Source: a virus
Strand: one strand, 5' to 3'
Length of the DNA: 40,209 bases
IMG/VR virus record: IMGVR_UViG_3300032050_000316
Coordinates: 1 to 40,209 of that record
Position numbers and translations under genes: made by a program. Shown here piece after piece: positions 1 to 39,456 of the stretch (positions are counted from its first letter, which is position 1; each line of letters opens with the position of its first letter). The notes under the pieces are model-generated. The model was not told the DNA's origin. It did no database searches and worked only from the letters and a program-made list of their open reading frames with translations.

Positions 1-38
1 CTTGCCACAATTGTATTTGCTTTTGGGAAAAATGCAAT

Positions 39-65
39 AAAAAAACCCCAGCGGTTAGGCTGGGG
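39..65 (-). terminator. Rho-independent terminator after the scaffold gene
   Basis: Read on the minus strand, a perfect 7-bp stem (CCCCAGC / GCTGGGG) with a 6-nt loop is followed directly by seven T. It lies about 20 nt past the scaffold stop codon and before the capsid gene on the circular map. It would end or attenuate transcription of the terminase-portal-scaffold operon and so set the scaffold-to-capsid ratio. It is repeated identically at 34519-34545. Confidence 0.93.
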
Positions 66-85
66 AAAAGTCGCGGCTGCGGGGA

Positions 86-865
86 TTAGTCTTTGACGTA
101 GGTTCTAAACATCCGTTCTACCTTCTGACGGTAGGCTGGATCGCTATTGTATTTGGGATCGGCCACCATCGCATACAGCTCATCCTTGCTGGGTGCGCCA
201 TCAAGCGGTGCAGACTCAATTGGGATGCGACCCTCGTAAGCCTCGCGGATCTTCATCAAAGCATTCAAGCCTCTGGCTGTACCACCCATGACCTTGAATT
301 CGTCGAAGTCATCCTTAGACCAGACACCCTTGGCAACTAGGCCACGCGCCCAATCGACCATGCCATTGACTACAGCTCCGGCATTTGGGCCAAGTTTCTT
401 CATTTCCTCGGCTGGGTCAACCATCTCACCGGCCATCATCTCCTGTGCCTGGCTGCGCAGGGATGTTGCCAGATCATCAAACTGTGCCTGGGATAAGCCA
501 TTCTCTTTTGCCCAGGTTGCCAGCGTGCCAGCAATTGGATTGTCAGCAGACTCTTCGCCGCCGAATGCAGTCAGGTCATACTTGCCATCAGCCGGAGCAT
601 TGTGCGCACCCTTGCTGATTTTGGCACGCAGATCGCGCCATGACTTGGCAATGCCTTCTAGGTCGGGCTCGTTGTTGTCTTTGTTCCAGAAGTTTTCTGG
701 CCAATAGTCTGGCCGTTCGAGCGGATCTTCTGCCGCCGCTTTGGTGGGATCAGGTGGCCGGTGGTCAATCTCGACTGCCTGCTTCTGTGCTGGGGTGTTT
801 GGGTCTTCGACGTTTACGCTGTCGAGTAGGCCGGTAGAACCGGGCTCGACTGTTTGGTCTGTCAT
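86..865 (-). CDS. Capsid assembly scaffolding protein (left copy)
   Basis: This is a 259-aa acidic, soluble, mainly helical protein with no cysteines or membrane segments. It is encoded between the portal and major capsid genes, the usual place for a podovirus scaffold. Residues 1-60 are Pro/Asp/Glu-rich and probably disordered. Residues 120-190 contain Gln/Met/Glu-rich helices, and the C-terminus is short and basic (around KVERMFRTYVKD), as expected of a scaffold helix that binds coat protein. The start ATG overlaps the stop of the upstream 87-aa gene (ATGA). A terminator follows the stop. The second copy differs at about ten residues, including a changed patch around residues 177-190. The assignment rests on position and composition, not on a conserved motif. 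Confidence 0.8.
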   Translation of the reverse strand: MTDQTVEPGSTGLLDSVNVEDPNTPAQKQAVEIDHRPPDPTKAAAEDPLERPDYWPENFWNKDNNEPDLEGIAKSWRDLRAKISKGAHNAPADGKYDLTAFGGEESADNPIAGTLATWAKENGLSQAQFDDLATSLRSQAQEMMAGEMVDPAEEMKKLGPNAGAVVNGMVDWARGLVAKGVWSKDDFDEFKVMGGTARGLNALMKIREAYEGRIPIESAPLDGAPSKDELYAMVADPKYNSDPAYRQKVERMFRTYVKD

Positions 866-1125
866 AAATTCCTCGCCTGATTGATCCGTGCAATTATTTC
901 CCGCACGACAGTTCTCTGCCCTTCAGCAAAGAATGCGTGTGAGGGGTCTGCACCAGGCACGGCAACTGGCACATCCACATACATCTGCCGCAGCCAATCC
1001 AGCAGCTTTTGGCCGTCCTCGTTGGCAAACACCCGCAAAGTCAACCGCGCTAGATCCTCGCGCTGCTGCTTTACTTCGCGGATGTCCTCGGCGTAATCAG
1101 CCTTCTCTAGGTCTTCCCAGCTCAT
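862..1125 (-). CDS. Small virion-operon protein, 87 aa, unknown function
   Basis: This 87-aa protein lies between the 108-aa protein and the scaffold, overlapping each by 4 nt (ATGA). It has a charged helical N-terminal half (roughly residues 1-45, rich in Glu, Lys and Arg) and a C-terminal helix around VVREIIARINQARNL. There is no membrane segment and no enzymatic motif. The right copy is identical except for one Glu-to-Asp change (AED to ADD near residue 13). Strong protein conservation alongside synonymous DNA change indicates a real, selected gene. I infer a head-assembly accessory role from its position only. Confidence 0.85.
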   Translation of the reverse strand: MSWEDLEKADYAEDIREVKQQREDLARLTLRVFANEDGQKLLDWLRQMYVDVPVAVPGADPSHAFFAEGQRTVVREIIARINQARNL

Positions 1126-1448
1126 TTAGCGGGCATCTTGGTAACTTCTTCTGGGCTGGCAAATGGCGACTTGTTTTCCTTCATGCGCATCACCGCATGG
1201 TCAACCGCCTTGTCCATGATTGACTTTGGCATCTTCTCCATAAACATCTCAGAGTCAGGATTGTTGCGCATTAGATAGTTCAGCTCACTTTTATTGAGTG
1301 TCGGAACAATCAGCGGAATCAGCGTTTCTTTGCCATTAAGACCGACACCAATGCTAATCTCGGTCATGACGTTGCCGTCTGGCCGCTTGATCTCGCCAAA
1401 GTAGCCGGAGCCCTTGGCAGTCTTATCTGGCCGCATTCCGTAATCCAT
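1122..1448 (-). CDS. Conserved phage protein, 108 aa, portal-adjacent
   Basis: This 108-aa protein is translated from an ATG that overlaps the portal stop codon (TAATG), so it is coupled to portal translation. Features visible are an N-terminal Gly/Lys-rich segment (MDYGMRPDKTAKGSGYFG), a central stretch predicted to be beta-rich (TEISIGVGLNGKETLIPLIV) and a helical, Lys/Met-rich C-terminus. The two copies in this window are identical at protein level although the DNA differs at many positions, which is evidence of strong purifying selection. Small proteins of this look are common beside podovirus portals, but I know of no assigned function. A virion or head-completion role is an inference from position. 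Confidence 0.85.
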   Translation of the reverse strand: MDYGMRPDKTAKGSGYFGEIKRPDGNVMTEISIGVGLNGKETLIPLIVPTLNKSELNYLMRNNPDSEMFMEKMPKSIMDKAVDHAVMRMKENKSPFASPEEVTKMPAK

Positions 1449-3040
1449 TACATACCCTCCGGTGCCATTGCGCCTTGCTGTGCTTGCATGGCCATTGCCT
1501 GCGCCATTGCAGCCTCTTGCTGCTGCTGTTGCATGGTTTCCATCAGTACCGCACGCTCGGCTGCCGTATTGCGAACCGCAGCAGGCACGCCCAGCTTGTC
1601 GCCAATGTAATCAACCACGGCATCCGTCTTGATGGCCATTGCGCCATCGGTGCCGAAGCCTTGCATGAGCTGAGTGTACTGGATGATCGCGTTGACCTCT
1701 TCCATGTTCTGCGCCATCGCCAGCGGAGCAACTGGCACCACCTTGGCCTCGAGTCCGTTGACCCGTAGCGGCATATCAATCAAGCCGCGCTCGTCCATCA
1801 CCTCGAGGATCTTGGCCACCAACGGAATCATGGTTTCGTTGATTAAGCGACCAAATGCCGAGCCCAGGTTCTGCGCCAGTTCCTTCATGCGCTCGACAAT
1901 CTCGGTGGCCGATCTAGCGCTCATGTTCTCAGGCGGCAGCGACTCATCCAGCAGAATGCGCTTGATGTTCTGCACCAGGTCGTTGATGACTAGCTGCGAC
2001 ACGTTGAAGTCACCCGAGCGTGGCAAAGCCAGCAGCGCTGGGCCTTGCGGGCCACCGTTGCGTGCCACAGGGATGATTGCACCAGGCACCAGCTTGACCG
2101 TGTTAGGGTTCAGCACGCCGTCATCTGCCGCAGTGTAGACACCAGCAACAGCCAGGCTGGCATTCTTTAGCAGCAGTTCCTTGGTCTTGTTCAGTGTCTT
2201 GATGTCGGGCAGCGCAGTCATCAGCGGGCCACGGCCATAGATCTCGCCTGCGACCTTCATGTACCGCGAGATCACCCAAGGTGACGTTTTACGGCGACGA
2301 TAGACCAGCTCCTCTTTGCCTTCCTTCCAGATAACGTGATAACAGTAGTCGCCACGTTTGGCATCAAATACGGTGGCTTCCAGCAGCTCAACATCGTCGG
2401 TTGGCTTCTGCTCAATCAAGCGCGTCAAGGTGTCGGGAATCTTGGCATCCGGCCATTGGCGCTGGATAGACTCAGCCTTCATGCGCATTCTGCGGTAGAC
2501 GTTGTCTACCTGACCGTTGGCACCCTCTTCGTAGCTGACCAAGAATAGTGGCACCGGCACGAAGTTGATCGGCGACACATCGTCGCCAGGCTGCACCATC
2601 ATGCAGGCAGTACCGACAGCTAGATCCAGCAGGAATTCACCAATCGCAATGTCAAAGTTGGATTGCTTCAATACGGAAAACATCTGTTCGCCGTAGACAT
2701 CCAGCACCGACTGCAGTTGCTGGCGACGATCCATCGGGATTGATGGGCCAGGTTCTAACCGAGCCCACTTGCGCTGCGGTGGAAACACGACCGACTGCAG
2801 ACGGTTAGCGAAACGCTGGGTCGAGTTGATCGCGGTTGAATCAAACACTCGCGCCATCTTTTTGCTGCCAGTTGCGCCACCTTCCCACAGGCCATAAAGC
2901 TGACGCTGTGGCAGGGCAAACTCGTAAGCATCCTGATAGAGCTGCTGGAATTCGTCCTTCTTGCGTTGGGCGAGTTCCTGCCGCTTCATGATTTCCTCGG
3001 GTTTTAGCCGCATCCCTCCGAGTGGTTCTTTATAGGCCAT
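1448..3040 (-). CDS. Portal / head-tail connector protein (left copy)
   Basis: This 530-aa protein has the length and composition of T7 gp8-type connectors. It would form the dodecameric ring at one capsid vertex through which DNA is packaged and ejected. The N-terminus has the helical Gln/Lys-rich segment typical of the family (around RKKDEFQQLYQDAYEFALP). A central region of beta strands is followed by helices, then a C-terminal tail of Gln/Ala/Met repeats (residues about 500-530, with five consecutive Gln) expected to be flexible. I chose ATG at 3040 over the in-frame TTG at 3046 because the right copy starts at the equivalent ATG and has no upstream extension. The copies differ by one residue (Ala/Ser near 57). 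It overlaps the next gene by TAATG. Confidence 0.93.
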   Translation of the reverse strand: MAYKEPLGGMRLKPEEIMKRQELAQRKKDEFQQLYQDAYEFALPQRQLYGLWEGGATGSKKMARVFDSTAINSTQRFANRLQSVVFPPQRKWARLEPGPSIPMDRRQQLQSVLDVYGEQMFSVLKQSNFDIAIGEFLLDLAVGTACMMVQPGDDVSPINFVPVPLFLVSYEEGANGQVDNVYRRMRMKAESIQRQWPDAKIPDTLTRLIEQKPTDDVELLEATVFDAKRGDYCYHVIWKEGKEELVYRRRKTSPWVISRYMKVAGEIYGRGPLMTALPDIKTLNKTKELLLKNASLAVAGVYTAADDGVLNPNTVKLVPGAIIPVARNGGPQGPALLALPRSGDFNVSQLVINDLVQNIKRILLDESLPPENMSARSATEIVERMKELAQNLGSAFGRLINETMIPLVAKILEVMDERGLIDMPLRVNGLEAKVVPVAPLAMAQNMEEVNAIIQYTQLMQGFGTDGAMAIKTDAVVDYIGDKLGVPAAVRNTAAERAVLMETMQQQQQEAAMAQAMAMQAQQGAMAPEGM

Positions 3041-3042
3041 GA

Positions 3043-3363
3043 TCAATCGTCCTTGTTTAACTTGTACTTTTCCAGCAGGTTGCGACCTTTGGCGGCCAAT
3101 CGAGCGGCAGCGCCTGCAGTGCGCGGCACCGGCTCACCCCATGCGTTGGCAGCCTTTGCCAACCTGGTTGGGTCGCCATCATCATCGATCAACGGCCCGC
3201 TCGGGTTGGTATAGAACCGAGTCAGGAAAGATCCTTTGCGACGCGCACGCTCACCAGATGGGGATGACTCTTTGACACCAGGCTGTAGGTTTTTGCTTTC
3301 ACCTGATCGCTCAAACTTGCGTCTGCCAGCCTCGGTCAGCCCACCCTCTGGATCACGCAACAT
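3043..3363 (-). CDS. DUF6321-like small phage protein, present only in the left copy
   Basis: This 106-aa basic protein contains a conserved-looking core: a Lys/Arg-rich lead (LTEAGRRKFERS), a segment RRKGSFLTRFYTNPSGPL, then Asp-rich DDDGDPTRLA, and a C-terminal AAARLAAKGRNLLEKYK helix. From memory this matches the phage family DUF6321, whose function is unknown; I could not verify this by search. The ATG overlaps the upstream stop (TGATG) and the stop is 2 nt before the portal ATG. The gene is cleanly absent from the right copy, where portal follows the 62-aa gene by a single base. It is therefore dispensable or strain-specific. Confidence 0.88.
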   Translation of the reverse strand: MLRDPEGGLTEAGRRKFERSGESKNLQPGVKESSPSGERARRKGSFLTRFYTNPSGPLIDDDGDPTRLAKAANAWGEPVPRTAGAAARLAAKGRNLLEKYKLNKDD

Positions 3364-3551
3364 CAGTCTTCTTCCTCTTCCTCTAGCTCGGCCTCATCCA
3401 TCATCTCTTTCAAGTTGCGCATAGGCTTGCCTGGCTTCTTGGCTGCCATGTATTTCTCGATCTTCTTGCGCAACGCAGGCGGCAGCTTCGACAGCTCGAC
3501 CATGCCCTCTTCTTCTTCGTATTCTTTCTCAATAGAGATTTCGATCTTCAT
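3363..3551 (-). CDS. Small acidic-tailed protein, 62 aa
   Basis: This 62-aa protein has a Glu-rich N-terminus (KEYEEEEGM), a central basic segment (LRKKIEKYMAAKKPGKP) and an acidic C-terminus of five Glu and Asp. The charge is thus segregated into acidic, basic and acidic blocks. It starts at an ATG overlapping the upstream 52-aa gene stop (ATGA). The right copy has one codon fewer in the terminal GAA/GAG run, as expected from slippage in a trinucleotide repeat. No function is recognisable. Its place just upstream of the portal suggests a head-assembly or packaging accessory role, by position only. Confidence 0.85.
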   Translation of the reverse strand: MKIEISIEKEYEEEEGMVELSKLPPALRKKIEKYMAAKKPGKPMRNLKEMMDEAELEEEEED

Positions 3552-3706
3552 TGCTTGCCTTTCGCTGCGGCCATGTTATCGATCAAGTTGGGATAGGGTC
3601 GGCCAGCCTTCTGCGCACGACGCATCGCGCTACGCTTTTGCATCTCAGATAGTTCCTTCGGCTTGCCCAAGTCTTTAGGCCTTGGCTTATCCCACACTTC
3701 TTTCAT
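3548..3706 (-). CDS. Small basic protein, 52 aa, unknown
   Basis: This short ORF encodes 52 residues rich in Lys, Arg and Pro. It starts MKEVWDKPRPKDLGKP and ends with NMAAAKGKQ. Its ATG overlaps the stop of the preceding 56-aa gene (TGATG) and its stop overlaps the next start (ATGA), so it is locked into the operon by coupling on both sides. The right copy (37704-37862) encodes the same protein with two or so conservative changes, which supports it being real despite its size. Net charge is strongly positive, so nucleic-acid or capsid-interior binding is possible, but nothing more specific can be said. Confidence 0.8.
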   Translation of the reverse strand: MKEVWDKPRPKDLGKPKELSEMQKRSAMRRAQKAGRPYPNLIDNMAAAKGKQ

Positions 3707-3876
3707 CACTTGCCCTTCTTGGCCATACCGGCCTCAGACAGCGCAATCGCAATTGCCTGGTCACGCGACTTGACCTTGTCACCGCTGGATGACTTCAGCT
3801 TGCCAGACTTGTACTCGCGCATGACTTTGGAAACCTTGTTTTTCATCTTGTCTTCTTTTTCGTAATTGCCTGGCAT
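3706..3876 (-). CDS. DUF6496-like small basic protein, 56 aa
   Basis: This 56-aa Lys-rich protein contains the pattern VMREYKSGKLKSSSGDKV followed by SRDQAIAIALSEAGMAKK. From memory this is characteristic of the phage and bacterial family DUF6496, a short basic protein of unknown role; the match was not checked by search. The ATG follows the 201-aa gene stop by 2 nt, and the stop overlaps the next ATG as TGATG. The right copy (37862-38032) is nearly identical. The family often occurs near phage structural genes. A DNA-binding or packaging accessory role is conceivable from its charge, but that is inference. Confidence 0.85.
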   Translation of the reverse strand: MPGNYEKEDKMKNKVSKVMREYKSGKLKSSSGDKVKSRDQAIAIALSEAGMAKKGK

Positions 3877-3878
3877 GA

Positions 3879-4484
3879 TCAGCTCTCCTGCAACATTGGT
3901 CTGGTGGCGCGTCTTCCGACTGCGCCCAATCGTGCGGCCTTACGTTCTGCAACCTCACGCTTGAAGGTGGTTTCAGCTTCGCCACGCTTTGCTTGGAATG
4001 TTGATACGTCAAACTCACCCAGCTCTGGCATGGTCGGCGCTGTTGGTGCCATTGGGGCTTTTTCAGCAAACTTTGGAATTGGACGGTCTTTGTAAAGATT
4101 CTGGTTTGCGTCAACTGAATACCCTTCTGGCAAGCCCGCTCTTTCCGAATATCTTTGTCCTTCTATTTCGTACATAAAGCCACGTTTGCCACCGCCAATG
4201 GTTCGGCCAACTAGCTGGCGCGGGTTAGCCTGCACATCCTCAATAGCTTTCTGATGCGCAGCTAATCTTTCTTTGTAACCTGCTGCTTGCTTCTCGTACT
4301 CACCCATCGCTGTCTTGTACTGCTCGGCAGCGACGTTATACGGTTCCATCTTTCTGGTTTGCTCTGTCTGAAACGCACCAAACGATTGCTGGTACTCGCC
4401 GGTGATTGCTTCGACATTCTTTTTGTACTGATCAGCCAGACGGTCGATGTCCGTCATTCTGCGCAGGCGTGGTTTCTTGGCCAT
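3879..4484 (-). CDS. Coiled-coil virion-operon protein with variable centre, 201 aa
   Basis: The N-terminal half (about residues 10-90) is a long charged helix rich in Gln, Tyr, Glu and Lys and likely to form a coiled coil. A Gly-rich central segment (about 90-130) is followed by a Pro/Ala hinge (APMAPTAPTMPELGEF). A basic C-terminal helix ends the protein (TTFKREVAERKAARLGAVGR, then RATRPMLQES). The last 30 residues are almost identical to those of the right copy, whereas the middle differs completely in places (a gap-rich, non-alignable stretch around residues 80-130). The gene overlaps the 149-aa gene by 1 nt (TAATG). It is possibly a virion component; no family is recognised. Confidence 0.82.
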   Translation of the reverse strand: MAKKPRLRRMTDIDRLADQYKKNVEAITGEYQQSFGAFQTEQTRKMEPYNVAAEQYKTAMGEYEKQAAGYKERLAAHQKAIEDVQANPRQLVGRTIGGGKRGFMYEIEGQRYSERAGLPEGYSVDANQNLYKDRPIPKFAEKAPMAPTAPTMPELGEFDVSTFQAKRGEAETTFKREVAERKAARLGAVGRRATRPMLQES

Positions 4485-4933
4485 TATTGCAGCCTCATTC
4501 CAGCGTTAAGCTCTGGTGATGTAACACCGAGTTCAGGCGTTAGACGCTCTTGCGACAGCAGCGCACGGCGACCGCCACGGGTACGCGCCTTCAATGCAGA
4601 AGCCTCAGACTGTGCTGCCTTGCGACGCTCTTCGTCAGCGGCGGCCTGCACTTCCTTGGCCTTCTTCTCCATCTCCAGTTTGTTCTCTTGGTACTGGAGC
4701 TGCTGTGCTTGGAATTGCTCACGCGCTTGCGCTGCTTGTTGCTCAAGTGACGCGCCTTGCTTGGCGTACTCAGCGGTTTGCCTGCCTAATTCCAAACGCA
4801 TTGCAGCGGCATCATCTGCCTGCTGCTTCAATGCTGCTGCCTGCTGACGTTCTGCAGCTCGGCGTGCCTTGCTGGCTTCGCTAGCTTGGTAAGCACTACC
4901 AGCAAAAATTGCTGCGGCAATCCAAAGTGGCAT
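4484..4933 (-). CDS. Long coiled-coil protein with hydrophobic N-terminus, 149 aa
   Basis: Residues 1-15 (MPLWIAAAIFAGSAYQ) are hydrophobic and could be a membrane-interacting helix or signal-like segment. Residues 18-120 are almost pure Ala/Gln/Glu/Lys/Arg helix with heptad character. The C-terminus is Arg/Gly-rich (ARTRGGRRALLSQERL). This composition is typical of podovirus internal or ejection-related proteins, but there is no specific motif. The stop overlaps the next ATG. The right copy is one residue shorter and differs mainly in the N-terminal 45 residues. The role is inferred from composition and from location in the head operon. Confidence 0.82.
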   Translation of the reverse strand: MPLWIAAAIFAGSAYQASEASKARRAAERQQAAALKQQADDAAAMRLELGRQTAEYAKQGASLEQQAAQAREQFQAQQLQYQENKLEMEKKAKEVQAAADEERRKAAQSEASALKARTRGGRRALLSQERLTPELGVTSPELNAGMRLQ

Positions 4934-4934
4934 A

Positions 4935-5249
4935 TCAATCTCCGATTAAAACTTCATCCAACCTATCTGGATCTGTTTCATCCGTTGCATGAACACAAAA
5001 CCAAACAGCATCCTCTAATGCGACAATTCGATGATGCTTTCCAGCAGATATATTGATACAGGCTGGCGCAGCAAACTCCTCAGAATTGCCATCAATCTCT
5101 ACCGTCACGCGACCGCTTGCCAAAATAGTGAAGTGGTCATATTCATGCGCGTGCGTTACCGCAAAATGATCTTTTGGCAGCGCTATCTGTCTGGCATATA
5201 AACCATCAGAGAAGTGATGCACGATGCCCAAATCAATCTCAATGCTCAT
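4935..5249 (-). CDS. Cupin-fold protein encoded in the head operon
   Basis: This 104-aa single-domain protein shows both cupin motifs. Motif 1 spans roughly residues 31-50 (HAHEYDHFTILASGRVTV, with candidate metal ligands His33, His35 and His39). Motif 2 spans about residues 66-78 (NISAGKHHRIVAL, with His72/His73). The spacing matches small conserved-barrel cupins, which bind a divalent metal and act as sugar-binding, isomerase or dioxygenase-like proteins. Substrate cannot be inferred. It lies between the large terminase and virion genes and is retained in the right copy with only a few substitutions, so it is a stable part of this phage. A structural role such as capsid decoration, rather than catalysis, is equally possible. 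Confidence 0.85.
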   Translation of the reverse strand: MSIEIDLGIVHHFSDGLYARQIALPKDHFAVTHAHEYDHFTILASGRVTVEIDGNSEEFAAPACINISAGKHHRIVALEDAVWFCVHATDETDPDRLDEVLIGD

Positions 5250-5309
5250 GCGCGGATTCTATTGGTTTTGCAGCAGGTTGCAATAGTAAAGCTATACGGC
5301 AGATATACC

Positions 5310-6863
5310 CTACGCAAAAATATCAAAGTCCATTGTGGCCACGGACATACCAGGCGCTCTGCCGCCCAGGCTATGCGCCCTTGTCATGCGGTTATATTCG
5401 CCGCCACCGAGCATCAGGTAGCCGAATGAGTCGCCAATGTGTGAGTGTTCGTTCTTGTTGGGCGCATCTCGGAACCGTTCCTGGCCTGCACCGACTGCAA
5501 CCCGCTTGAAGTGGTAGCCACCTGCCAGAGCCTTTCTCAGCAGCTTGCAGGAGCGGTTGACGATAAGACCTGGCTTGCCATCAATCAGACGCTGCATAGG
5601 CGCTGCAGAGGATTCTCGGCGTACCTTGAAGTCGTTGGAAGCAGTGGGCTGTGCCTTTAGCCCCAGGGTGCGCAGGAAATCGAAGGCAGTCACCTCGTAG
5701 ATGGCATCGCGTGCCATACCGGCGGGGTCGCCCCAGATCATTACCTGGTGCTGTGGGTAGCGGGTATTCAATTCAGCCAGCAACTGCATCCCAAAACGCT
5801 CTAGACCCATGTCGAAGGTGACGATTTCATGGTGTATTACCCAGCGACCGTTAGGCAGGCGCTGGCCAATGGTGGCCGCTGGTGTCAGACCGAAGTCGAG
5901 CCCGACCTGAATTGGCACCTCCATCGATAGCTCAGTCTCGCCAGACATGGTGGAGTCATCGTATTCAGGCCAGACGGGTCTGCCTTCTTGGACGTAGGTG
6001 TACAGACCACCTGCGTAGCACTTGATCCAATCCAAGTTCTTGCCGAGCAGCATCTGCTGGTAGTAGCCACCCGGCAGGTTGTTGACGTTCTCGGCTTCGG
6101 GGTTGATCTTCCACCACTTACCAGCAGCGAATACATGGTCGTTGGCCTCGGGATTGTCTGGCAGATCGGCAGGGTCAACCTCTTTCACGCCACCTGGCTG
6201 CTGCCAAAACTTCCAGGCATACGGGCCGGTCATCTTTTCCTTGACGGCCATACGGTGCCACCAGTGATCATCGTCCGTCGGGTTGGTATCCATCCAGATA
6301 CCGTGCCAGGTAGCGCCACCATCGCGCTTGGTTGGGTAGCGGCCAACACGGTGGGTCAGGCCATCGATCACAGCCTTGGGCAGTTCTCGCGCTTCGTTGA
6401 CCCAAGCACCGGTTAGTTCCAGGGAAAGCAGCTTTCTAACGTCCTTGGGCTGATCTAGCGCCAGAAAGATGACCTCCATGTCGATGCCTGCGGCATCACC
6501 GCGGGCAGGTAGCCGGATGTGGTGGGTGATTGGTGGAGTCCAGAGCATTGGCCCGAAGGTGGATTCTGGAAACAGGTCGAGCCAGGTCTTGATGGTGGTG
6601 GTTTTCAGCATTGGGTAGCTGTTTCGCACCACCGCCCAGCGGGTATAGCGGATGTTATCAACCGGGCTCGGCTTCTGTTGGATCGCTTTCTTGAAGATCT
6701 TGGCCGCGCAGGCGTAGCTCTTGCCGGAGCCCACCGGCCCCATCACGCCTTGTACGAAGTTGTTCGACTGAAAGAAGTCGTACACCACCGGGCTCAGACT
6801 GAAGTCGAACCGCAGACCGCCGGTTGCTACTGTCTTCTCTGACTGTTGTTTTGTCTTTGACAC
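5310..6863 (-). CDS. terL: Terminase large subunit (ATPase-nuclease)
   Basis: This 517-aa packaging motor docks on the portal, cuts concatemeric DNA and pumps it into the prohead. The N-terminal ATPase has a Walker A loop at residues 42-50 (GPVGSGKSY) and a probable Walker B/catalytic Glu in TGAWVNEARE (151-160). The C-terminal RNase-H-like nuclease shows three acidic residues at plausible positions: Asp323 (GLDFG), Asp379 (IWGDP) and Asp478 (HIGDS). Translation starts at GTG (6863), preceded by GGAG about 6 nt upstream. It is 15 nt downstream of the 68-aa gene. The second copy at the right edge of the window is truncated. The packaging strategy (pac or cos) cannot be read from this. Confidence 0.95.
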   Translation of the reverse strand: MSKTKQQSEKTVATGGLRFDFSLSPVVYDFFQSNNFVQGVMGPVGSGKSYACAAKIFKKAIQQKPSPVDNIRYTRWAVVRNSYPMLKTTTIKTWLDLFPESTFGPMLWTPPITHHIRLPARGDAAGIDMEVIFLALDQPKDVRKLLSLELTGAWVNEARELPKAVIDGLTHRVGRYPTKRDGGATWHGIWMDTNPTDDDHWWHRMAVKEKMTGPYAWKFWQQPGGVKEVDPADLPDNPEANDHVFAAGKWWKINPEAENVNNLPGGYYQQMLLGKNLDWIKCYAGGLYTYVQEGRPVWPEYDDSTMSGETELSMEVPIQVGLDFGLTPAATIGQRLPNGRWVIHHEIVTFDMGLERFGMQLLAELNTRYPQHQVMIWGDPAGMARDAIYEVTAFDFLRTLGLKAQPTASNDFKVRRESSAAPMQRLIDGKPGLIVNRSCKLLRKALAGGYHFKRVAVGAGQERFRDAPNKNEHSHIGDSFGYLMLGGGEYNRMTRAHSLGGRAPGMSVATMDFDIFA

Positions 6864-18602: not shown

Positions 18603-19667
18603 TTAAAGCTCCGCTGAAGCTGTAAAGTAATCGCCAGTGTCGTTTGCTTCTGACTGTGTTACCGCGTTTGCGGAAGCAGTCTGATACCTGCGAAAACCAG
18701 AAACAGTCGCTGCATCAAGAACAGGTTGTCCACAACTAGTGGCTAAAAAAGTTCCAACAACTGTTAAAGTTGGTGCAGCACGTTTTGTGACTGCAAACGG
18801 ATACCAAGTTGCAACAGTCTGTCCGTTTAATCCATATGCGTGCATTGCTAACGAACTAACTGCTCCGCGCCCGATTTCTTCATAATACCGCTGGCACATA
18901 ATCAACTCACGCCCATAATCTCTGCGCTCAAATGGTGTTGCTACTGAGCCAGCTTCTAGTTGTACGCCGGTGATGTAGAAGGTTGCGCCGTTGGTTCCGA
19001 CTACAGATACTGCGCCTGTGGCTGATCGAAGGTCGGCAGCAGCCCAAGCACCCGCAGTTCCTGAGTATGTGCTGCCAGCCCCCAACCCAAACCAGACTCG
19101 AATTCCGCAAGTGTTATCAGTAGCCCATGTCCCGCTTGTGTCTCCTGCCACTGTGACAGATTTCAACTCCCAAGTATTTGCAGAACTAATTGTGTAGCTA
19201 AATGGGTATGACCGAGTCACACCTGCATTTGAAAAAGCACCGCCAAATGTTCCTGTCAGACTTGAACGAACCAAAAAAGAAAGAGTGACTGTTTGTGCAT
19301 TTGCAGTTCCCCACCCTAAGTCAGCAACATTAAACCCTTCAATTTGTTGCAAGACAGAAAAATTATCGCTAGATGTGATTGAGTATGCGGATTGCGATGT
19401 GATTCCAAGATAATTTGTAAACCCCGCCGGTCTATTAGCTGCGCTTAAGCTTCCAGCATTTTGTTGAGCAATAATTTTTCCGTTTGTGGCAGTTTGCAGA
19501 ACCATCCAACGATCAATAAAATAACCATTGATAGTGTTTGCGGAAGCCGCCCCAGCATTACGCTGATCGATCCTACAGTCTCCATTTATTATTCTATTGC
19601 GAAACCCGAACGGACTTCCACTATCGTAAGCCGTTGCAAGCTCAGACAATTCTCGCGATCTACTCAT
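18603..19667 (-). CDS. Tail/receptor-binding protein of the NRIINGD type, 354 aa
   Basis: The N-terminus (ATAYDSGSPFGFRNRIINGD, then DQRNAG, and later YFIDRWMVL) is the motif order seen in many phage tail and fibre proteins with C-terminal beta-rich receptor-binding parts. The rest is Ser/Thr/Gly/Ala-rich and predicted to be all beta. A segment FYITGVQLEAGSVATPFERR near residues 230-250 is typical of this class. DNA is AT-richer and codon use differs from the head genes, suggesting recent module acquisition. The first 27 residues match the 27-codon remnant at 20184-20267 at 21 positions. The ATG overlaps the endonuclease stop (ATGA) and has AAGGAG upstream. Confidence 0.82.
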   Translation of the reverse strand: MSRSRELSELATAYDSGSPFGFRNRIINGDCRIDQRNAGAASANTINGYFIDRWMVLQTATNGKIIAQQNAGSLSAANRPAGFTNYLGITSQSAYSITSSDNFSVLQQIEGFNVADLGWGTANAQTVTLSFLVRSSLTGTFGGAFSNAGVTRSYPFSYTISSANTWELKSVTVAGDTSGTWATDNTCGIRVWFGLGAGSTYSGTAGAWAAADLRSATGAVSVVGTNGATFYITGVQLEAGSVATPFERRDYGRELIMCQRYYEEIGRGAVSSLAMHAYGLNGQTVATWYPFAVTKRAAPTLTVVGTFLATSCGQPVLDAATVSGFRRYQTASANAVTQSEANDTGDYFTASAEL

Positions 19668-20182
19668 GCTTCACTCCTTCGCTTAGCGTGCCAAGCACGT
19701 ATTGAATTACTTCTCTTTAGCCGCTCTTGTTCGCTTTGAACTCGGCCCATGCGAGACTTACTCATTTTCTCTCTTGTTTCTTTAGATGCTTTTTTGTTTA
19801 AGTTTGGATGAACAGCCAATGAAGACCAATATTTTCTTTGAGACTCACTCATCTTTTGACGAGTTTCCTGAGAGGCTTTGAGTCCTTTATTTGGCGCATG
19901 GTAAACATATTTTCCCCACCTACCTCCACTTTCAAGGTTGTAGCCATTCGGTGCCAAACAATCAAACACATCAATCCAAAACTTCTCAAAGAAGTCAAGC
20001 TGGGTCTGTGACAAATCACCTTCAGTTAAATATGTGTATTCAAAGAGAGAATGACCATACTTTTTATAAGCGTCTTTTATGGCATGACCATGACCGTGGC
20101 GAGAATGTTTCGTCACAGTCTGACCAACGTACTGCTTGCCGTTGATCTTATTGGTCACCAAGTAAATACGCCCGTAGCCCAT
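19664..20182 (-). CDS. GIY-YIG homing endonuclease with NUMOD3-like repeats
   Basis: This 172-aa protein has an N-terminal GIY-YIG nuclease domain (about 1-90). The GIY motif is RIYLVT (Tyr7) and the YIG motif is QYVG (Tyr18). A catalytic Arg is likely in HSRHGHG; Glu66 is in DFFEKFW and Asn82 in GYNLESGG. The C-terminus has two DNA-binding NUMOD3-like repeats (around NKGLKASQETRQKMSESQ and KKASKETREKMSKSRMG). I chose ATG 20182 rather than the longer frame, because the 19 upstream codons overlap the tail remnant in another frame. It starts 1 nt after the remnant stop and is coupled to the next tail gene. It is a selfish element that would spread into lineages lacking it. Confidence 0.9.
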   Translation of the reverse strand: MGYGRIYLVTNKINGKQYVGQTVTKHSRHGHGHAIKDAYKKYGHSLFEYTYLTEGDLSQTQLDFFEKFWIDVFDCLAPNGYNLESGGRWGKYVYHAPNKGLKASQETRQKMSESQRKYWSSLAVHPNLNKKASKETREKMSKSRMGRVQSEQERLKRSNSIRAWHAKRRSEA

Positions 20183-20183
20183 G

Positions 20184-20267
20184 TCAGATGATGCGGTTAC
20201 GGAAACCAAGTGAGCCACCGCTGTCATAGCTAGTGGCAAGTTCTGCTAGTTCTCTGGATCGTGGCAT
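20184..20267 (-). pseudogene. 27-codon 5' remnant of a tail gene, truncated at the endonuclease
   Basis: From an ATG overlapping the 84-aa gene stop (TAATG), the frame encodes 27 residues ending SLGFRNRII and then TGA. The product matches residues 1-27 of the 354-aa tail protein at 21 of 27 positions, stopping exactly at the conserved FRNRII motif. Codon choice is GC-rich, unlike the AT-rich full gene, so it is not a recent direct copy of it. The endonuclease ATG follows after one base. I read it as the head of an older tail gene cut off by insertion or replacement. Confidence 0.8.
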
Positions 20268-20521
20268 TATGCACCCCCTAATGCGGCTGCTTGCTGTGCT
20301 TGATACGCCGCGATTACTTCAGGAGTCCATGCTACTTGTGCGATGGCGGCCACGTTAGCAGGCTGACCCTCAAGGTCTTGCCCCGGTGTCAGAGAAGTCC
20401 TGTGATACGTCTGTGTCAGTACCTTGCCATCTTCAATGATGCGTGTAGCTTCGCGGTACAGCACAATGCCGTTCTCACAAACTGTAATTTGATCCACAAC
20501 GGTTTCTTTAGTAATAGCCAT
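20267..20521 (-). CDS. Small tail-fibre-associated protein, 84 aa
   Basis: This 84-aa protein is predicted to be beta-rich at the N-terminus (VDQITVCENGIVLYREATRI, then DGKVLTQTYHRTSLTPG) and ends in a helical Ala/Gln-rich tail. A start of Lys-Glu followed by Val-x-Gln-Ile-Thr-Val and a short EDGK turn recurs in small proteins encoded beside tail fibres of many phages, of unknown function. It has a good GAAAGGAAA ribosome site. Its stop overlaps the remnant start (TAATG). Confidence 0.78.
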   Translation of the reverse strand: MAITKETVVDQITVCENGIVLYREATRIIEDGKVLTQTYHRTSLTPGQDLEGQPANVAAIAQVAWTPEVIAAYQAQQAAALGGA

Positions 20522-34480: not shown

Positions 34481-34518
34481 CTTGCCACAATTGTATTTGC
34501 TTTTGGGAAAAATGCAAT

Positions 34519-34545
34519 AAAAAAACCCCAGCGGTTAGGCTGGGG
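34519..34545 (-). terminator. Terminator after the scaffold gene (right copy)
   Basis: This is identical to the 39-65 terminator: a 7-bp GC-rich stem, 6-nt loop and seven T on the minus strand. It separates the scaffold gene from the capsid gene at 34353. Confidence 0.93.
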
Positions 34546-34565
34546 AAAAGTCGCGGCTGCGGGGA

Positions 34566-35345
34566 TTAGTCTTTGACGTAGGTTCTAAACATCCGTTCTA
34601 CCTTCTGTCGGTAGGCTGGATCGCTATTGTATTTGGGATCGGCAACCATTGCATACAGCTCATCTTTGCTAGGTGCGCCATCAAGCGGTGCAGACTCAAT
34701 GGGGATGCGACCCTCGTAAGCCTCGCGGATCTTCATCAGGGCATTCAAGCCTCGGGCTGTGCCGCCCATAATCTTGAATTCGGCGAAATCCTCGGCTGAC
34801 CAGACACCCTTGTTGACTAGACCTCTAGCCCAATCGACCATGCCATTGACCACAGCTCCGGCATTGGGGCCGAGTTTCTTCATTTCCTCGGCTGGGTCAA
34901 CCATCTCACCGGCCATCATCTCCTGTGCCTGGCTGCGCAGGGATGTTGCTAGATCGTCAAACTGTGCCTGGGATAAGCCATTCTCTTTTGCCCAAGTTGC
35001 CAGCGTGCCAGCGATTGGGTTGTCTGCAGACTCTTCGCCACCGAATGCAGCCAGGTCATACTTGCCATCAGCCGGAGCATTGTGCGCACCCTTGCTGATC
35101 TTGGCACGCAGATCGCGCCATGACTTGGCAATGCCTTCTAGGTCGGGCTCGTTGTTGTCTTTGTTCCAGAAGTTTTCTGGCCAATAGTCTGGCCGCTCGA
35201 GCGGATCTTCTGCCGCTGCCTTGGTGGGATCAGGTGGCCGGTGGTCAATCTCGACTGCCTGCTTTTGTGCTGGGGTGTTTGGGTCTTCGACGCTCACGCT
35301 GTCGAGTAGGCCGGAAGATCCGGGCTCGACTGTCTGGTCTGTCAT
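34566..35345 (-). CDS. Scaffolding protein (right copy)
   Basis: This is a 259-aa counterpart of 86-865 with the same layout. About ten residues differ, several grouped in GLVNKGVWSAEDFAEFKIMG (versus VAKGVWSKDDFDEFKVMG). Because the capsid gene at 34353 lies directly downstream, this is the allele physically linked to the capsid gene in the contig. ATGA overlaps the upstream gene. Confidence 0.8.
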   Translation of the reverse strand: MTDQTVEPGSSGLLDSVSVEDPNTPAQKQAVEIDHRPPDPTKAAAEDPLERPDYWPENFWNKDNNEPDLEGIAKSWRDLRAKISKGAHNAPADGKYDLAAFGGEESADNPIAGTLATWAKENGLSQAQFDDLATSLRSQAQEMMAGEMVDPAEEMKKLGPNAGAVVNGMVDWARGLVNKGVWSAEDFAEFKIMGGTARGLNALMKIREAYEGRIPIESAPLDGAPSKDELYAMVADPKYNSDPAYRQKVERMFRTYVKD

Positions 35346-35605
35346 AAATTCCTCGCTTGATTGATCCGTGCAATTATTTCCCGCACGACAGTTCTCTGCC
35401 CTTCAGCAAAGAATGCGTGCGAGGGGTCTGCACCAGGCACGGCAACTGGCACATCCACATACATCTGCCGCAGCCAATCCAGCAGCTTCTGGCCGTCCTC
35501 GTTGGCAAACACCCGCAAGGTTAGCCGCGCTAGATCCTCGCGCTGCTGCTTTACTTCACGGATGTCATCGGCGTAATCAGCCTTTTCTAGGTCTTCCCAG
35601 CTCAT
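35342..35605 (-). CDS. Small virion-operon protein, 87 aa (right copy)
   Basis: Counterpart of 862-1125, with one Glu-to-Asp difference near residue 13. It is coupled to both neighbours by ATGA overlaps. Function is unknown; conservation in both copies shows selection on the protein. Confidence 0.85.
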   Translation of the reverse strand: MSWEDLEKADYADDIREVKQQREDLARLTLRVFANEDGQKLLDWLRQMYVDVPVAVPGADPSHAFFAEGQRTVVREIIARINQARNL

Positions 35606-35928
35606 TTAGCGGGCATCTTGGTAACTTCTTCTGGGCTGGCAAATGGCGATTTGTTTTCCTTCATGCGCATTACCGCATGGTCAACAGCCTTGTCCATGAT
35701 TGACTTTGGCATCTTCTCCATAAACATCTCGGAGTCAGGATTGTTGCGCATTAGATAGTTCAGCTCACTTTTATTGAGTGTCGGAACAATCAGCGGAATC
35801 AGCGTTTCTTTGCCATTAAGACCGACACCAATGCTGATCTCGGTCATGACGTTGCCGTCTGGCCGCTTGATCTCGCCAAAGTAGCCGGAGCCTTTGGCGG
35901 TCTTGTCTGGCCGCATTCCGTAATCCAT
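35602..35928 (-). CDS. Portal-adjacent conserved protein, 108 aa (right copy)
   Basis: The protein is identical to that of 1122-1448 although the DNA differs at many third positions. It starts at TAATG over the portal stop. Function is unknown. Confidence 0.85.
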   Translation of the reverse strand: MDYGMRPDKTAKGSGYFGEIKRPDGNVMTEISIGVGLNGKETLIPLIVPTLNKSELNYLMRNNPDSEMFMEKMPKSIMDKAVDHAVMRMKENKSPFASPEEVTKMPAK

Positions 35929-37520
35929 TACATACCCTCCGGTGCCATTGCGCCTTGCTGTGCCTGCATGGCCATTGCCTGCGCCATTGCAGCCTCTTGC
36001 TGCTGCTGTTGCATGGTTTCCATCAGTACCGCACGCTCGGCTGCCGTATTGCGAACCGCAGCAGGCACGCCCAGCTTGTCGCCAATGTAGTCAACCACGG
36101 CATCCGTCTTGATGGCCATCGCGCCATCGGTGCCGAAGCCTTGCATGAGCTGAGTGTACTGGATGATCGCGTTGACCTCTTCCATGTTCTGCGCCATCGC
36201 CAGCGGAGCCACCGGCACTACCTTGGCTTCGAGCCCGTTGACCCGCAGTGGCATATCGATCAGACCGCGCTCGTCCATTACCTCAAGGATCTTGGCCACC
36301 AACGGAATCATGGTTTCGTTGATCAGGCGACCGAATGCCGAGCCCAGGTTCTGCGCCAGTTCCTTCATGCGCTCGACAATCTCGGTGGCCGATCTGGCGC
36401 TCATGTTCTCAGGCGGCAGCGACTCATCCAGCAGAATGCGCTTGATGTTCTGCACCAGGTCATTGATGACTAGCTGCGACACGTTGAAGTCACCCGAGCG
36501 TGGCAAAGCCAGTAGAGCTGGGCCTTGCGGGCCGCCGTTGCGTGCCACAGGGATAATCGCACCAGGCACCAGCTTTACGGTATTCGGGTTCAGCACGCCG
36601 TCATCAGCCGCAGTGTAGACACCGGCAACAGCCAGAGAAGCATTCTTGAGCAACAGTTCTTTGGTCTTGTTCAGCGTTTTGATGTCGGGCAGCGCAGTCA
36701 TCAGCGGGCCACGGCCATAGATCTCGCCGGCGACCTTCATGTACCGCGAGATCACCCAAGGTGACGTTTTACGGCGACGATAGACTAGCTCCTCTTTGCC
36801 TTCTTTCCAGATAACGTGATAGCAGTAGTCGCCACGCTTGGCATCAAAGACAGTAGCCTCCAACAGTTCAACATCGTCGGTTGGCTTTTGCTCAATCAAG
36901 CGCGTCAGAGTGTCGGGTATCTTGGCATCCGGCCATTGGCGCTGAATCGACTCAGCCTTCATGCGCATTCTGCGGTAGACATTATCGACCTGGCCGTTGG
37001 CACCCTCTTCGTAGCTGACCAGGAACAATGGCACCGGCACGAAGTTGATCGGCGACACATCATCGCCTGGCTGCACCATCATGCAGGCAGTGCCAACAGC
37101 TAGATCCAGCAGGAATTCACCAATCGCAATGTCAAAGTTGGATTGTTTCAACACGGAAAACATCTGTTCGCCGTAGACATCCAGCACCGACTGTAGTTGC
37201 TGGCGACGATCCATCGGGATTGATGGGCCAGGTTCCAGCCGAGCCCACTTGCGCTGCGGTGGAAACACGACAGACTGCAGACGGTTGGCAAAGCGCTGGG
37301 TCGAGTTGATCGCGGTCGAATCAAACACTCGCGCCATCTTCTTGCTGCCAGTGCTGCCACCTTCCCACAGGCCATAGAGCTGACGCTGTGGCAGGGCAAA
37401 CTCGTAGGCATCCTGATAGAGCTGCTGGAATTCGTCCTTCTTACGCTGGGCGAGTTCCTGCCGCTTCATGATTTCTTCGGGTTTTAGCCGCATCCCTCCA
37501 AGCGGTTCTTTGTAGGCCAT
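35928..37520 (-). CDS. Portal / head-tail connector protein (right copy)
   Basis: This 530-aa connector differs from the left copy by one residue (Ser for Ala near 57, GGSTGSKK). The many silent differences show two lineages under strong purifying selection. Here the ATG follows the 62-aa gene equivalent by one base, because the 106-aa gene is missing. That supports ATG, not the upstream TTG, as the start in the left copy. Confidence 0.93.
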   Translation of the reverse strand: MAYKEPLGGMRLKPEEIMKRQELAQRKKDEFQQLYQDAYEFALPQRQLYGLWEGGSTGSKKMARVFDSTAINSTQRFANRLQSVVFPPQRKWARLEPGPSIPMDRRQQLQSVLDVYGEQMFSVLKQSNFDIAIGEFLLDLAVGTACMMVQPGDDVSPINFVPVPLFLVSYEEGANGQVDNVYRRMRMKAESIQRQWPDAKIPDTLTRLIEQKPTDDVELLEATVFDAKRGDYCYHVIWKEGKEELVYRRRKTSPWVISRYMKVAGEIYGRGPLMTALPDIKTLNKTKELLLKNASLAVAGVYTAADDGVLNPNTVKLVPGAIIPVARNGGPQGPALLALPRSGDFNVSQLVINDLVQNIKRILLDESLPPENMSARSATEIVERMKELAQNLGSAFGRLINETMIPLVAKILEVMDERGLIDMPLRVNGLEAKVVPVAPLAMAQNMEEVNAIIQYTQLMQGFGTDGAMAIKTDAVVDYIGDKLGVPAAVRNTAAERAVLMETMQQQQQEAAMAQAMAMQAQQGAMAPEGM

Positions 37521-37521
37521 G

Positions 37522-37707
37522 TCAGTCTTCCTCTTCCTCTAGCTCGGCCTCATCCATCATCTCTTTCAAGTTGCGCGTTGGCTTGCCTGGCTTCTTGGCT
37601 GCCATGTATTTCTCAATCTTCTTGCGCAACGCAGGCGGCAGCTTCGACAGCTCGACCATGCCCTCTTCTTCTTCGTATTCTTTCTCAATAGAGATTTCGA
37701 TCTTCAT
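37522..37707 (-). CDS. Small acidic-tailed protein, 61 aa (right copy)
   Basis: Counterpart of 3363-3551, with one Glu codon fewer in the C-terminal acidic run and Thr for Met in the KPTRNL segment. The stop is followed by one base and then the portal ATG, so portal may be translated by re-initiation. Confidence 0.83.
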   Translation of the reverse strand: MKIEISIEKEYEEEEGMVELSKLPPALRKKIEKYMAAKKPGKPTRNLKEMMDEAELEEEED

Positions 37708-37862
37708 TGCTTGCCTTTCGCTGCGGCCATGTTATCGATCAAATTGGGATAGGGTCTGCCAGCCTTCTGCGCACGACGCATTGCATTGCGCTTTTGCATA
37801 TCAGATAGTTCCTTCGGCTTGCCCAAGTCTTTAGGCCTTGGCTTATCCCACACTTCTTTCAT
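37704..37862 (-). CDS. Small basic protein, 52 aa (right copy)
   Basis: Counterpart of 3548-3706, with changes of Glu to Asp and Ser to Asn around residues 21-26. The same ATGA and TGATG overlaps are kept. Conservation of frame in both copies supports a real gene. Confidence 0.78.
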   Translation of the reverse strand: MKEVWDKPRPKDLGKPKELSDMQKRNAMRRAQKAGRPYPNLIDNMAAAKGKQ

Positions 37863-38032
37863 CACTTGCCCTTCTTGGCCATACCGGCCTCAGACAGCGC
37901 AATCGCAATCGCTTGGTCACGCGACTTGACCTTGTCACCGCTGGATGACTTCAGCTTTCCAGACTTGTACTCGCGCATGACTTTAGAAACTTTGCTTTTC
38001 ATCTTGTCTTCTTTTTCGTAATTGCCTGGCAT
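37862..38032 (-). CDS. DUF6496-like small basic protein, 56 aa (right copy)
   Basis: Counterpart of 3706-3876 with one Asn-to-Ser change (MKSKVSKV); the QAIAIALSEAGMAKK signature is retained. It is coupled to the next gene as TGATG. Confidence 0.83.
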   Translation of the reverse strand: MPGNYEKEDKMKSKVSKVMREYKSGKLKSSSGDKVKSRDQAIAIALSEAGMAKKGK

Positions 38033-38034
38033 GA

Positions 38035-38634
38035 TCAGCTCTCCTGCAACATTGGTCTGGTGGCGCGTCTACCAACTGCGCCAAGGCGTGCGGCTTTACG
38101 TTCACCAACTTCGCGCTTAAACGTACTTTCTGCTTCTGTTTTAGCTGCAGCAAATTTTGATGTATCAAACTCTTGCACCGTTGGTCTTACTGGAGCTGTT
38201 GGCGCTGATGGCGCTGCTTCAGTAAATTTTGGGATTGGTTTCTTTTCGTAAGTTTTGTAGGTTTGTTGAACCGGCATATAGCCACCAAAAAAAGGTGACA
38301 TTGGATCGGAAACAAAAACATATGAAGTTTTTGTACCAGTTTTTTCAATGACAGGATCTTTTGCAATCGCTTCAAGCGTAGCGTTGTATTGGTCTAGCTT
38401 GCTTTGATAAGCAGCCTTTTGCGACTCAAACGCTGGCATCAGCTCAGACTGATAGCGCTTAACCTCGGCCTCATACGGTGCCATCTTTTCCGCTACCTGT
38501 TTCTGATAGTCGGCATAGCTTTGCTCATACTGGCCAGTCATTGCCTGCACATTCTTGGAATACTCGCGTGCCAGACGTTCAATGTCTGACATCCTGCGCA
38601 CTTTCGTGCGCTTTTGGTAGAGTGTCTCTGCCAT
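38035..38634 (-). CDS. Coiled-coil protein with variable centre, 199 aa (right copy)
   Basis: Counterpart of 3879-4484. The C-terminal 30 residues (FKREVGERKAARLGAVGRRA and the rest) are nearly the same. The N-terminus is recognisable (RRMSDIERLAREYSKNVQAM), but residues about 55-135 share little identity with the other allele and contain a different Tyr/Pro/Gly-rich segment (SDPMSPFFGGYMPVQQTY). The same coiled-coil and Pro-hinge plan is kept. A surface-exposed or host-interacting role would fit such variability. Confidence 0.8.
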   Translation of the reverse strand: MAETLYQKRTKVRRMSDIERLAREYSKNVQAMTGQYEQSYADYQKQVAEKMAPYEAEVKRYQSELMPAFESQKAAYQSKLDQYNATLEAIAKDPVIEKTGTKTSYVFVSDPMSPFFGGYMPVQQTYKTYEKKPIPKFTEAAPSAPTAPVRPTVQEFDTSKFAAAKTEAESTFKREVGERKAARLGAVGRRATRPMLQES

Positions 38635-39080
38635 TATTGCAGCCTCATTCCAGATGAGAGTTCAGCGCTGGTGACACCCAGCTCAGGCGTTAGACGCTCC
38701 TGCGACAGCAGCGCACGGCGACCACCACGGGTGCGTGCCTTCAATGCAGAAGCCTCGGATGCGGCAGCCTTGCGGCGCTCTTCGTCAGCAGCGGCCTGCA
38801 CTTCCTTGGATTTCTTTTCCATCTCCAGCTTGTTCTCTTGGTACTGGAGCTGCTGCGCTTGAAATTGCTCACGCGCCATTTGCGCTTGCTGCTCGAGTGA
38901 CGCGCCTTGCTTGGCGTACTCAGCAGTTTGCCTGCCTAATTCCAAACGCATTGCAGCGGCATCTTTAGCTTGTTGCTGTAACGCTGCGGCTTGCTGACGT
39001 TCCGCATCTTTACGCGCCTGACGCGCTTCATTAGCTTGGTAAACAGATCCCGCAAAAACTGCTGCTGCAATCCACGGCAT
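38634..39080 (-). CDS. Long coiled-coil protein, 148 aa (right copy)
   Basis: Counterpart of 4484-4933, one residue shorter. Most changes are in the first 45 residues (MPWIAAAVFAGSVYQANEA and the following Arg/Ala-rich helix), and the C-terminal Arg/Gly motif is the same. The hydrophobic N-terminus is retained. Confidence 0.8.
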   Translation of the reverse strand: MPWIAAAVFAGSVYQANEARQARKDAERQQAAALQQQAKDAAAMRLELGRQTAEYAKQGASLEQQAQMAREQFQAQQLQYQENKLEMEKKSKEVQAAADEERRKAAASEASALKARTRGGRRALLSQERLTPELGVTSAELSSGMRLQ

Positions 39081-39081
39081 A

Positions 39082-39396
39082 TCAACCTCCGATTAAAACC
39101 TTGTCTAGCCCATCTGGATCTGTTTCATCAGTTGCATGAACACAAAACCAAACAGAATCCTCTAATGCGACAATTCGATGATGCTTGCCAGCAGATATAT
39201 TGATGCAAGCTGGCGCAGCAAACTCCTCAGAATTGCCGTCAATCTCTACCGTCACGCGACCGCTAGCCAAAATACTAAGATGGTCATACTCATGCGCGTG
39301 CGTCACAGCAAAGTGATCTTTGGGTAGCGCCATCTGTCTGGCATATAAGCCGTCAGAAAAGTGATGCACGATGCCCAAATCAATCTCAATGCTCAT
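39082..39396 (-). CDS. Cupin-fold protein (right copy)
   Basis: Counterpart of 4935-5249, with all candidate metal-binding His retained and about eight conservative changes (for example YDHLSILASG for YDHFTILASG). This retention argues that the metal site matters. Confidence 0.84.
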   Translation of the reverse strand: MSIEIDLGIVHHFSDGLYARQMALPKDHFAVTHAHEYDHLSILASGRVTVEIDGNSEEFAAPACINISAGKHHRIVALEDSVWFCVHATDETDPDGLDKVLIGG

Positions 39397-39456
39397 GCGC
39401 GGATTCTATTGGTTTTGCAGCAGGTTGCAATAGTAAAGCTATACGGCAGATATACC

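Follow-up and report, generated by a model that had tools for sequence, protein, structure and literature searches.

The window analysed here, i.e. the whole stretch of 40,209 nucleotides of IMG/VR virus record IMGVR_UViG_3300032050_000316, carries on its minus strand a tail locus in which a homing endonuclease gene (HEG) lies between two versions of the same gene start. The locus opens with a gene encoding 84 aa (20267-20521), which belongs to phrog_6228, a family of unknown function, and whose stop codon overlaps the start of a 27-codon open reading frame via TAATG. This short frame (MPRSRELAELATSYDSGGSLGFRNRII*; 20184-20267), hereafter named head1 or the stub, ends at the motif FRNRII. One base past its stop (TGA-C-ATG) starts a HEG of the GIY-YIG/NUMOD3 type, encoding 172 aa (ATG at 20182, stop at 19664), which in turn overlaps (ATGA) a full-length tail-fibre gene encoding 354 aa (18603-19667). 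A Shine-Dalgarno (SD) sequence, AAGGAG, is found within the last HEG codons (19674-19679), 6 nt ahead of the ATG of this tail gene. The 27 codons opening the tail gene (head2; 19587-19667) specify 21/27 of the residues of the stub and share 58% of its bases. When the 20 identical residues having synonymous codons are compared, 18 differ in codon. The protein motif is thus kept in head2, whereas the corresponding DNA (19582-19598) reads AATAGAATAATAAATGG instead of AACCGCATCATCAATGG, the consensus of tail genes without a HEG. An earlier note on this DNA had recognised the broken head stopping at FRNRII, the endonuclease one base behind it, and the complete paralogue opening with nearly the same residues in other codons, all of which our analysis bears out. 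It had also described all the genes as joined by start-stop overlaps, which is correct for the 84-aa gene and the stub and for the HEG and the tail gene, but not for the stub and the HEG.

Bioinformatic analysis of the HEG product reveals a NUMOD3 motif in two stretches (Pfam, E=5e-8, 33.1 bits), a GIY-YIG domain scoring below threshold (20.1 bits for a cut-off of 22.6), and a match to the homing endonuclease family phrog_314 (E=1e-31). In addition, a HEG profile (A1) weakly matches the catalytic domain of I-TevI (1ln0 and 1mk0, E=0.007 and 0.045, respectively). Several features of a GIY-YIG homing endonuclease are thus present, i.e. a catalytic domain, a NUMOD-type DNA-binding region, and matching alleles with an empty site (see below). 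The tail protein matches phrog_4492 (tail fiber, E=4.5e-57) and corresponds to the last third of this 1096-position family. An AlphaFold model of this protein has a mean pLDDT of 66.5, with a well predicted core spanning approximately residues 90-240, and Foldseek assigns the body to CBM4-2 (E=1.9e-6). Such a predicted CBM4-like β-sandwich is compatible with binding to the host surface.

The same arrangement exists in other contigs. In another IMG/VR contig (L001), HEG and tail proteins identical to those of the window are encoded in the same order, and in L081 (the same as L160) the cassette of the window is present between different flanks, with a HEG protein 97% identical and a head2 matching at 97%. 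Because of these two contigs, and since contigs without a HEG hold an intact gene, it is unlikely that the structure originates from an assembly accident. The block common to the window and L081 (19557-20270; 96% over 714 bp, both flanks being unlike) delimits the putative mobile unit. Searches with the exact DNA patterns of head1 and head2 found further copies only in L001 and L081 (= L160). Past their divergent bodies, the tail genes of the window and L081 are again 98% identical over 127 bp (18878-19004 in the window, 3584-3710 in L001), and this stretch (GTNGATFYITGVQLEAGS...CQRYY) is possibly a second module boundary. Both ends of the window (1-6062 and 34481-40209) carry the same stretch, read in the same direction and ~91-95% identical across most of 5.7 kb. 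It is as if the contig had passed once round a genome of ~34.5 kb, either circular or permuted, and continued into a second variant of the strain, which would make it a possible assembly chimera.

The 27 residues of the stub open an intact tail gene in five contigs without a HEG (L002, L003, L005, L006, and L010), all of which have a homologue of the 84-aa gene just before it. Uninterrupted alleles at this position, which the earlier note had proposed to search for, are thus found. Because 79 of the first 80 bases of the intact gene in L002, L003, and L010 are those of the stub, the stub is, by comparison of the alleles, a decapitated tail gene, as first supposed. In the HEG-less contigs that were fetched, the 27-codon frame was never seen as a separate small gene and was always the start of a full gene; an independent small gene was therefore rejected. 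The match between the stub and the empty-site allele stops after ...CGCATCAT, which places the putative insertion point between 20187 and 20188. Moreover, to the right of its recoded motif L081 is the same as L002 for ~45 bp, so that it has the appearance of an empty site that received a HEG and a second head. Empty-site alleles also exist for other types of head, with intact HEG-less counterparts in L059/L065 for MPITLNG (79%) and in L045 for both MSYGTVQ (83%) and MTYGTVQ (96%).

Our searches found 45 HEG-adjacent tail genes, all of them in uncultured viral contigs. The phage records in the collection contained no HEG with >60% identity, and a scan of prokaryote genomes returned only three weak HEG matches, none of which was taken into the analysis. 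In both family I (HEG of ~172 aa) and family II (~215 aa), the HEG directly precedes a tail gene displaying the motif KNRIING or a variant, in most cases overlapping it. At least eight types of head are cut off ahead of a HEG (MPRSREL.., MSNAREL.., MGKAASL.., MPITLNG.., MSYGTVQ.., MSQLQV.., MGIAREL.., and MTYGTVQ..; loci L001/L081, L082/L162, L084, L168/L169, L170-172, L175/L200/L206, L179, and L207), and all stop within the motif or right before it. One of them, MSQLQV, is broken in both families, at slightly different bases. Stubs measure 24-35 codons where present and are missing in many relatives, in which the HEG starts at the stop of the upstream gene. In the HEG tree, the stub-bearing members are scattered, with at least five changes of label forced by well-supported branches. 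The proposal that a conserved tail-gene motif is where the endonuclease inserts thus extends well beyond the window, and the comparative evidence would place the cleavage site at the insertion point as well.

If the enzyme recognises this motif, the copy adjacent to the HEG is expected to be recoded, and this is the pattern found. In tail genes without a HEG, the motif is conserved in its DNA, with ATC used for the first Ile in 79% of cases vs. 16% for Ile codons elsewhere in these genes. The canonical spelling, Asn followed by ATC-ATY, occurs in 1/44 genes with a HEG vs. 55/70 genes without (P=2e-17), or 0/17 vs. 41/55 when counted by head cluster (P=2e-8), and in 2/45 genes (P=3e-16) and 1/18 clusters (P=2e-7) when L090, a more diverged HEG outside the distance filter of the 44-gene set, is added; these P values are descriptive because the two sets were gathered by different queries and their rows are related. 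The five central codons are spelled in 28 different ways among the HEG-linked genes. The changes affect mostly Ile codons and include some Ile to Leu replacements, as well as Asn to Ser in nine genes (seven KSRIING and two RSRIING), a replacement found in 0/70 genes without a HEG. At the first Ile, ATA is used in 8/13 clusters vs. 17.5% in the same genes overall (P=5e-4), and the departure from the HEG-less consensus peaks in and beside the motif. The consensus ATCATCAAYGG contains an I-TevI-like CNNNG motif (C-AAY-G); as ATCATTAACGG alleles do not have it, this is no more than a lead. The closest empty-site alleles (L002 type) spell ATCATT rather than ATCATC and are for this reason only candidate targets.

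There are exceptions to this pattern on both sides. Two loci keep ATCATC beside a HEG (L088, 3335-3360; L090, 4682-4705). The clade of L088 (L087, L088, and L173) has a Lys where many family I members have an Arg after YVGQT..., but the idea that its enzyme is inactive is only a guess because the same Lys is present in L170, L174, L177, and L179. Conversely, 15/70 HEG-less genes have no canonical motif. Some of these spellings resemble those next to a HEG, i.e. KNKIING (ATAATA) in L042 and KNKLING (CTGATA) in L033/L035, the latter two with heads resembling those of HEG-linked genes; these may be resistant alleles left after loss of a HEG. A third HEG family (~195 aa; L218, L219, L222, L226-L228, and L089), associated with tail genes displaying the motif AKAWVNFNG, often lies between two tandem genes of this type. 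We looked for recoding of AKAWVNFNG beside these HEG and found none, which indicates that proximity to a HEG is not in itself enough to yield recoding. The HEG-less genes from these contigs, 2/5 of which are canonical, form a small and diverse sample that was not used.

These observations bear directly on an alternative in which the HEG is an ordinary free-standing one, like the Seg genes of T4, located next to its target. The codon differences would then have arisen passively as donor and recipient diverged, and the stub would be an incidental scar. Intronless homing by free-standing GIY-YIG enzymes is established in T4 (PMC2988022), and HEG-linked genes are slightly richer in AT (GC 0.405 vs. 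0.435), as passive divergence would allow. However, general drift towards AT fails as an explanation because outside the motif the two sets have similar Ile codon usage, and because ATA is more frequent at the motif than expected from how these genes use it. Nor does such drift account for a Ser restricted to HEG-linked genes, for a deviation strongest in and beside the motif, or for stubs of at least eight head types ending at one motif. We therefore consider this alternative unlikely.

Next to the question of what is recoded stands the question of what moves. Where HEG are near-identical (up to 100%), the HEG and the head that follows it are shared, whereas the tail bodies are only about 0.62-0.77, and mostly 0.64-0.77, identical (e.g. 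L180/L181/L182, L214/L215, L203/L211, L087/L173, and L001/L081), i.e. they differ as much as distant homologues. In 11/13 compared pairs, the shared block ends on the right 44-65 bp beyond the base at which the motif starts. On the left its limit is variable, mostly 0-90 bp ahead of the HEG and farther away in L082/L162 and L170/L171, which have related upstream flanks. Since near-identical HEG front different bodies and the shared block ends so close to the motif, the mobile unit is, as delimited by these comparisons, the HEG plus its replacement head, and the recipient keeps its own tail body. Over all pairs, HEG identity and head2 identity are weakly correlated (rank correlation 0.12), the linkage being visible only among close HEG pairs. 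Phages without a HEG that have near-identical heads also have different bodies (15/18 pairs at 0.60-0.69), which means that bodies can be exchanged without a HEG and that part of the pattern seen in HEG pairs could come from ordinary recombination. By this evidence, the motif serves generally as a site where tail bodies are exchanged. Among the HEG-less tail genes (L002-L080), the synonymous positions of AACCGCATCATCAATGG are conserved while the rest of the genes has diverged, so that this conserved DNA looks like an exchange point acting at the DNA level.

These findings do not support the interpretation originally given to the locus, that of a tail-swapping device in which the HEG travels with a new receptor-binding gene that replaces the one of the recipient. 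This interpretation would fit the window taken on its own, where a full-length gene follows the HEG and begins with a head that is recoded when compared with the stub; in addition, the exchange of bodies could be stimulated by a break at the motif. However, a travelling receptor-binding gene is hard to reconcile with near-identical HEG followed by bodies as unlike as distant homologues, with blocks that usually end shortly after the motif, and with the exchange of bodies at the same motif in phages without a HEG. We regard it as quite improbable. It is very unlikely that tandem tail-gene paralogues existed first and that a HEG then entered one of them and deleted its body. Six loci do combine a stub and a head2 of recognisably related types, but head2 follows the HEG across phages whereas the stub matches HEG-less alleles, L207 combines a stub of one type with a head2 of another, and inspection of intact alleles revealed no tandem pair.

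How the two genes are expressed can be surmised from the architecture of the junctions. An AAGGA or AGGAG sequence is found in the HEG coding sequence or at its end, a few bases ahead of the tail-gene start, in 44/44 HEG-linked genes. Tail genes without a HEG also have SD sites, located within the preceding gene, so that what matters is that here the site comes from the HEG itself. In contrast to the tail gene behind it, the HEG of the window has no obvious SD sequence at its start, one base past the stop of the stub, and at other loci the HEG start overlaps or nearly touches the preceding stop. This suggests that translation of the HEG is coupled to the old start of the tail gene, and that the HEG provides the tail gene with a new one. 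A further possibility is that the HEG, together with head2, is part of an intron or intein, the removal of which rejoins head1 to the tail body. This would agree with head1 ending exactly where the body would continue, but we rejected it as extremely unlikely since the HEG is out of frame with head1, head2 is conserved as protein with its own ATG and SD, and Rfam detected no intron either in the window region at E up to 1 or in nine loci at gathering thresholds.

Taken together, these findings make it quite likely, in our judgement, that the locus is a homing element consisting of a GIY-YIG HEG and a recoded rescue head of its target gene, overlapping the 3' end of the HEG. In this homing element, the enzyme would recognise the DNA encoding K/R-N-R-I-I-N-G near the start of the tail-fibre gene and, in a co-infected cell, cut HEG-less alleles, the candidate target being tail-gene DNA containing AACCGCATCATCAAYGG. 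Repair would then copy the HEG-bearing locus into the break. On the right, the exchange would end within ~60 bp of the motif, in the conserved DNA encoding ..IDQRNAGASVT, consistent with the block edges. On the left, the head of the recipient would remain as a stub ending at the motif, as in the stub-bearing loci, or be lost if the exchange took place upstream. In T4, heterologous sequences can join during break repair (PMC2988022), which could explain why stubs are retained where the left side has no homology. The imported head, which has its own start codon and an SD site in the last HEG codons, would restart the tail body of the recipient, while the HEG would take over the old translation start, its ATG being at most loci a few bases from the stop of the stub or upstream gene. 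Because the imported head does not have the usual motif DNA, the finished locus should escape recutting, and the element is probably self-immune. The net effect would be to cut, insert, re-head, and become immune, with no intron or intein. We also lean, with more reserve, towards the broader view that such natural home-and-rescue is widespread in phages. Two HEG families would have repeatedly invaded one tail-fibre motif, each with a recoded, start-codon-bearing rescue head restoring the cut gene and conferring immunity. As the changes are family-specific (mostly Ile-Ile recoding in family I, Asn to Ser or recoding in family II), they would record the target of each enzyme.

If this is correct, a homing endonuclease can reside without splicing within the coding region of a gene that is probably essential, by means of a recoded rescue piece. 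The rescue in engineered home-and-rescue (HomeR) gene drives is reportedly recoded as well, and phages would thus have arrived at what human designers did. The stubs, empty sites, and recoded alleles would then constitute a natural data set on how a drive lands, how recoding of its target comes about, and when it fails. A stub and a paralogue beside a HEG need not mean that a receptor-binding gene has been swapped.

In the passages of PMC10448857 available to us, HEG are described in the vicinity of essential genes of phages and at the boundaries of exchange, without mention of a HEG combined with a recoded head. Such an arrangement was likewise not found in the open literature on phage HEG with tail fibre, recoding or rescue, a scope that covers few subscription papers. 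Like the Seg-type enzymes of T4, the enzyme here is a free-standing GIY-YIG endonuclease encoded by a cassette in an operon, with no intron (PMC2988022). It differs from the enzymes described there, whose cleavage sites lie hundreds or thousands of bases away from the gene for the enzyme, in that its putative site is the insertion point itself, within a coding motif, and in having a linked rescue head. In mobE in nrdA of Aeh1 and mobA in gene 60 of T4, both halves of the interrupted gene are kept as separate polypeptides (PMC2988022), whereas here the first piece would be a discarded stub and the imported head would restart the body. With HomeR drives, the likeness lies in a nuclease directed at an essential gene and linked to a rescue (PMC7968924). 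The difference is that HomeR relies on CRISPR/Cas9 in Drosophila (PMC7968924), whereas the phage element would rely on a homing endonuclease of natural origin and carry no more than an N-terminal segment, in a tail gene that we assume to be essential. The closest precedent, by analogy, appears to be the mobile ORFs of fungal mitochondria that carry C-terminal rescue segments, found as C-terminal duplications in atp6 of Allomyces macrogynus and in atp6, atp9, cox2, and nad3 of Glomus sp. (PMC3630166). The inserted ends in Glomus sp. keep 94-100% of the protein with a nucleotide identity of 64-81%, i.e. 19-36% differing (PMC3630166). In both kinds of element, a HEG is accompanied by a copy of a gene end, of foreign origin, that takes the place of the displaced native end. 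In the fungal elements this is the C terminus, with the HEG located after the native start, whereas in phages it is the N-terminal head, downstream of a GIY-YIG HEG, in tail genes, and equipped with a start codon and a ribosome site of its own.
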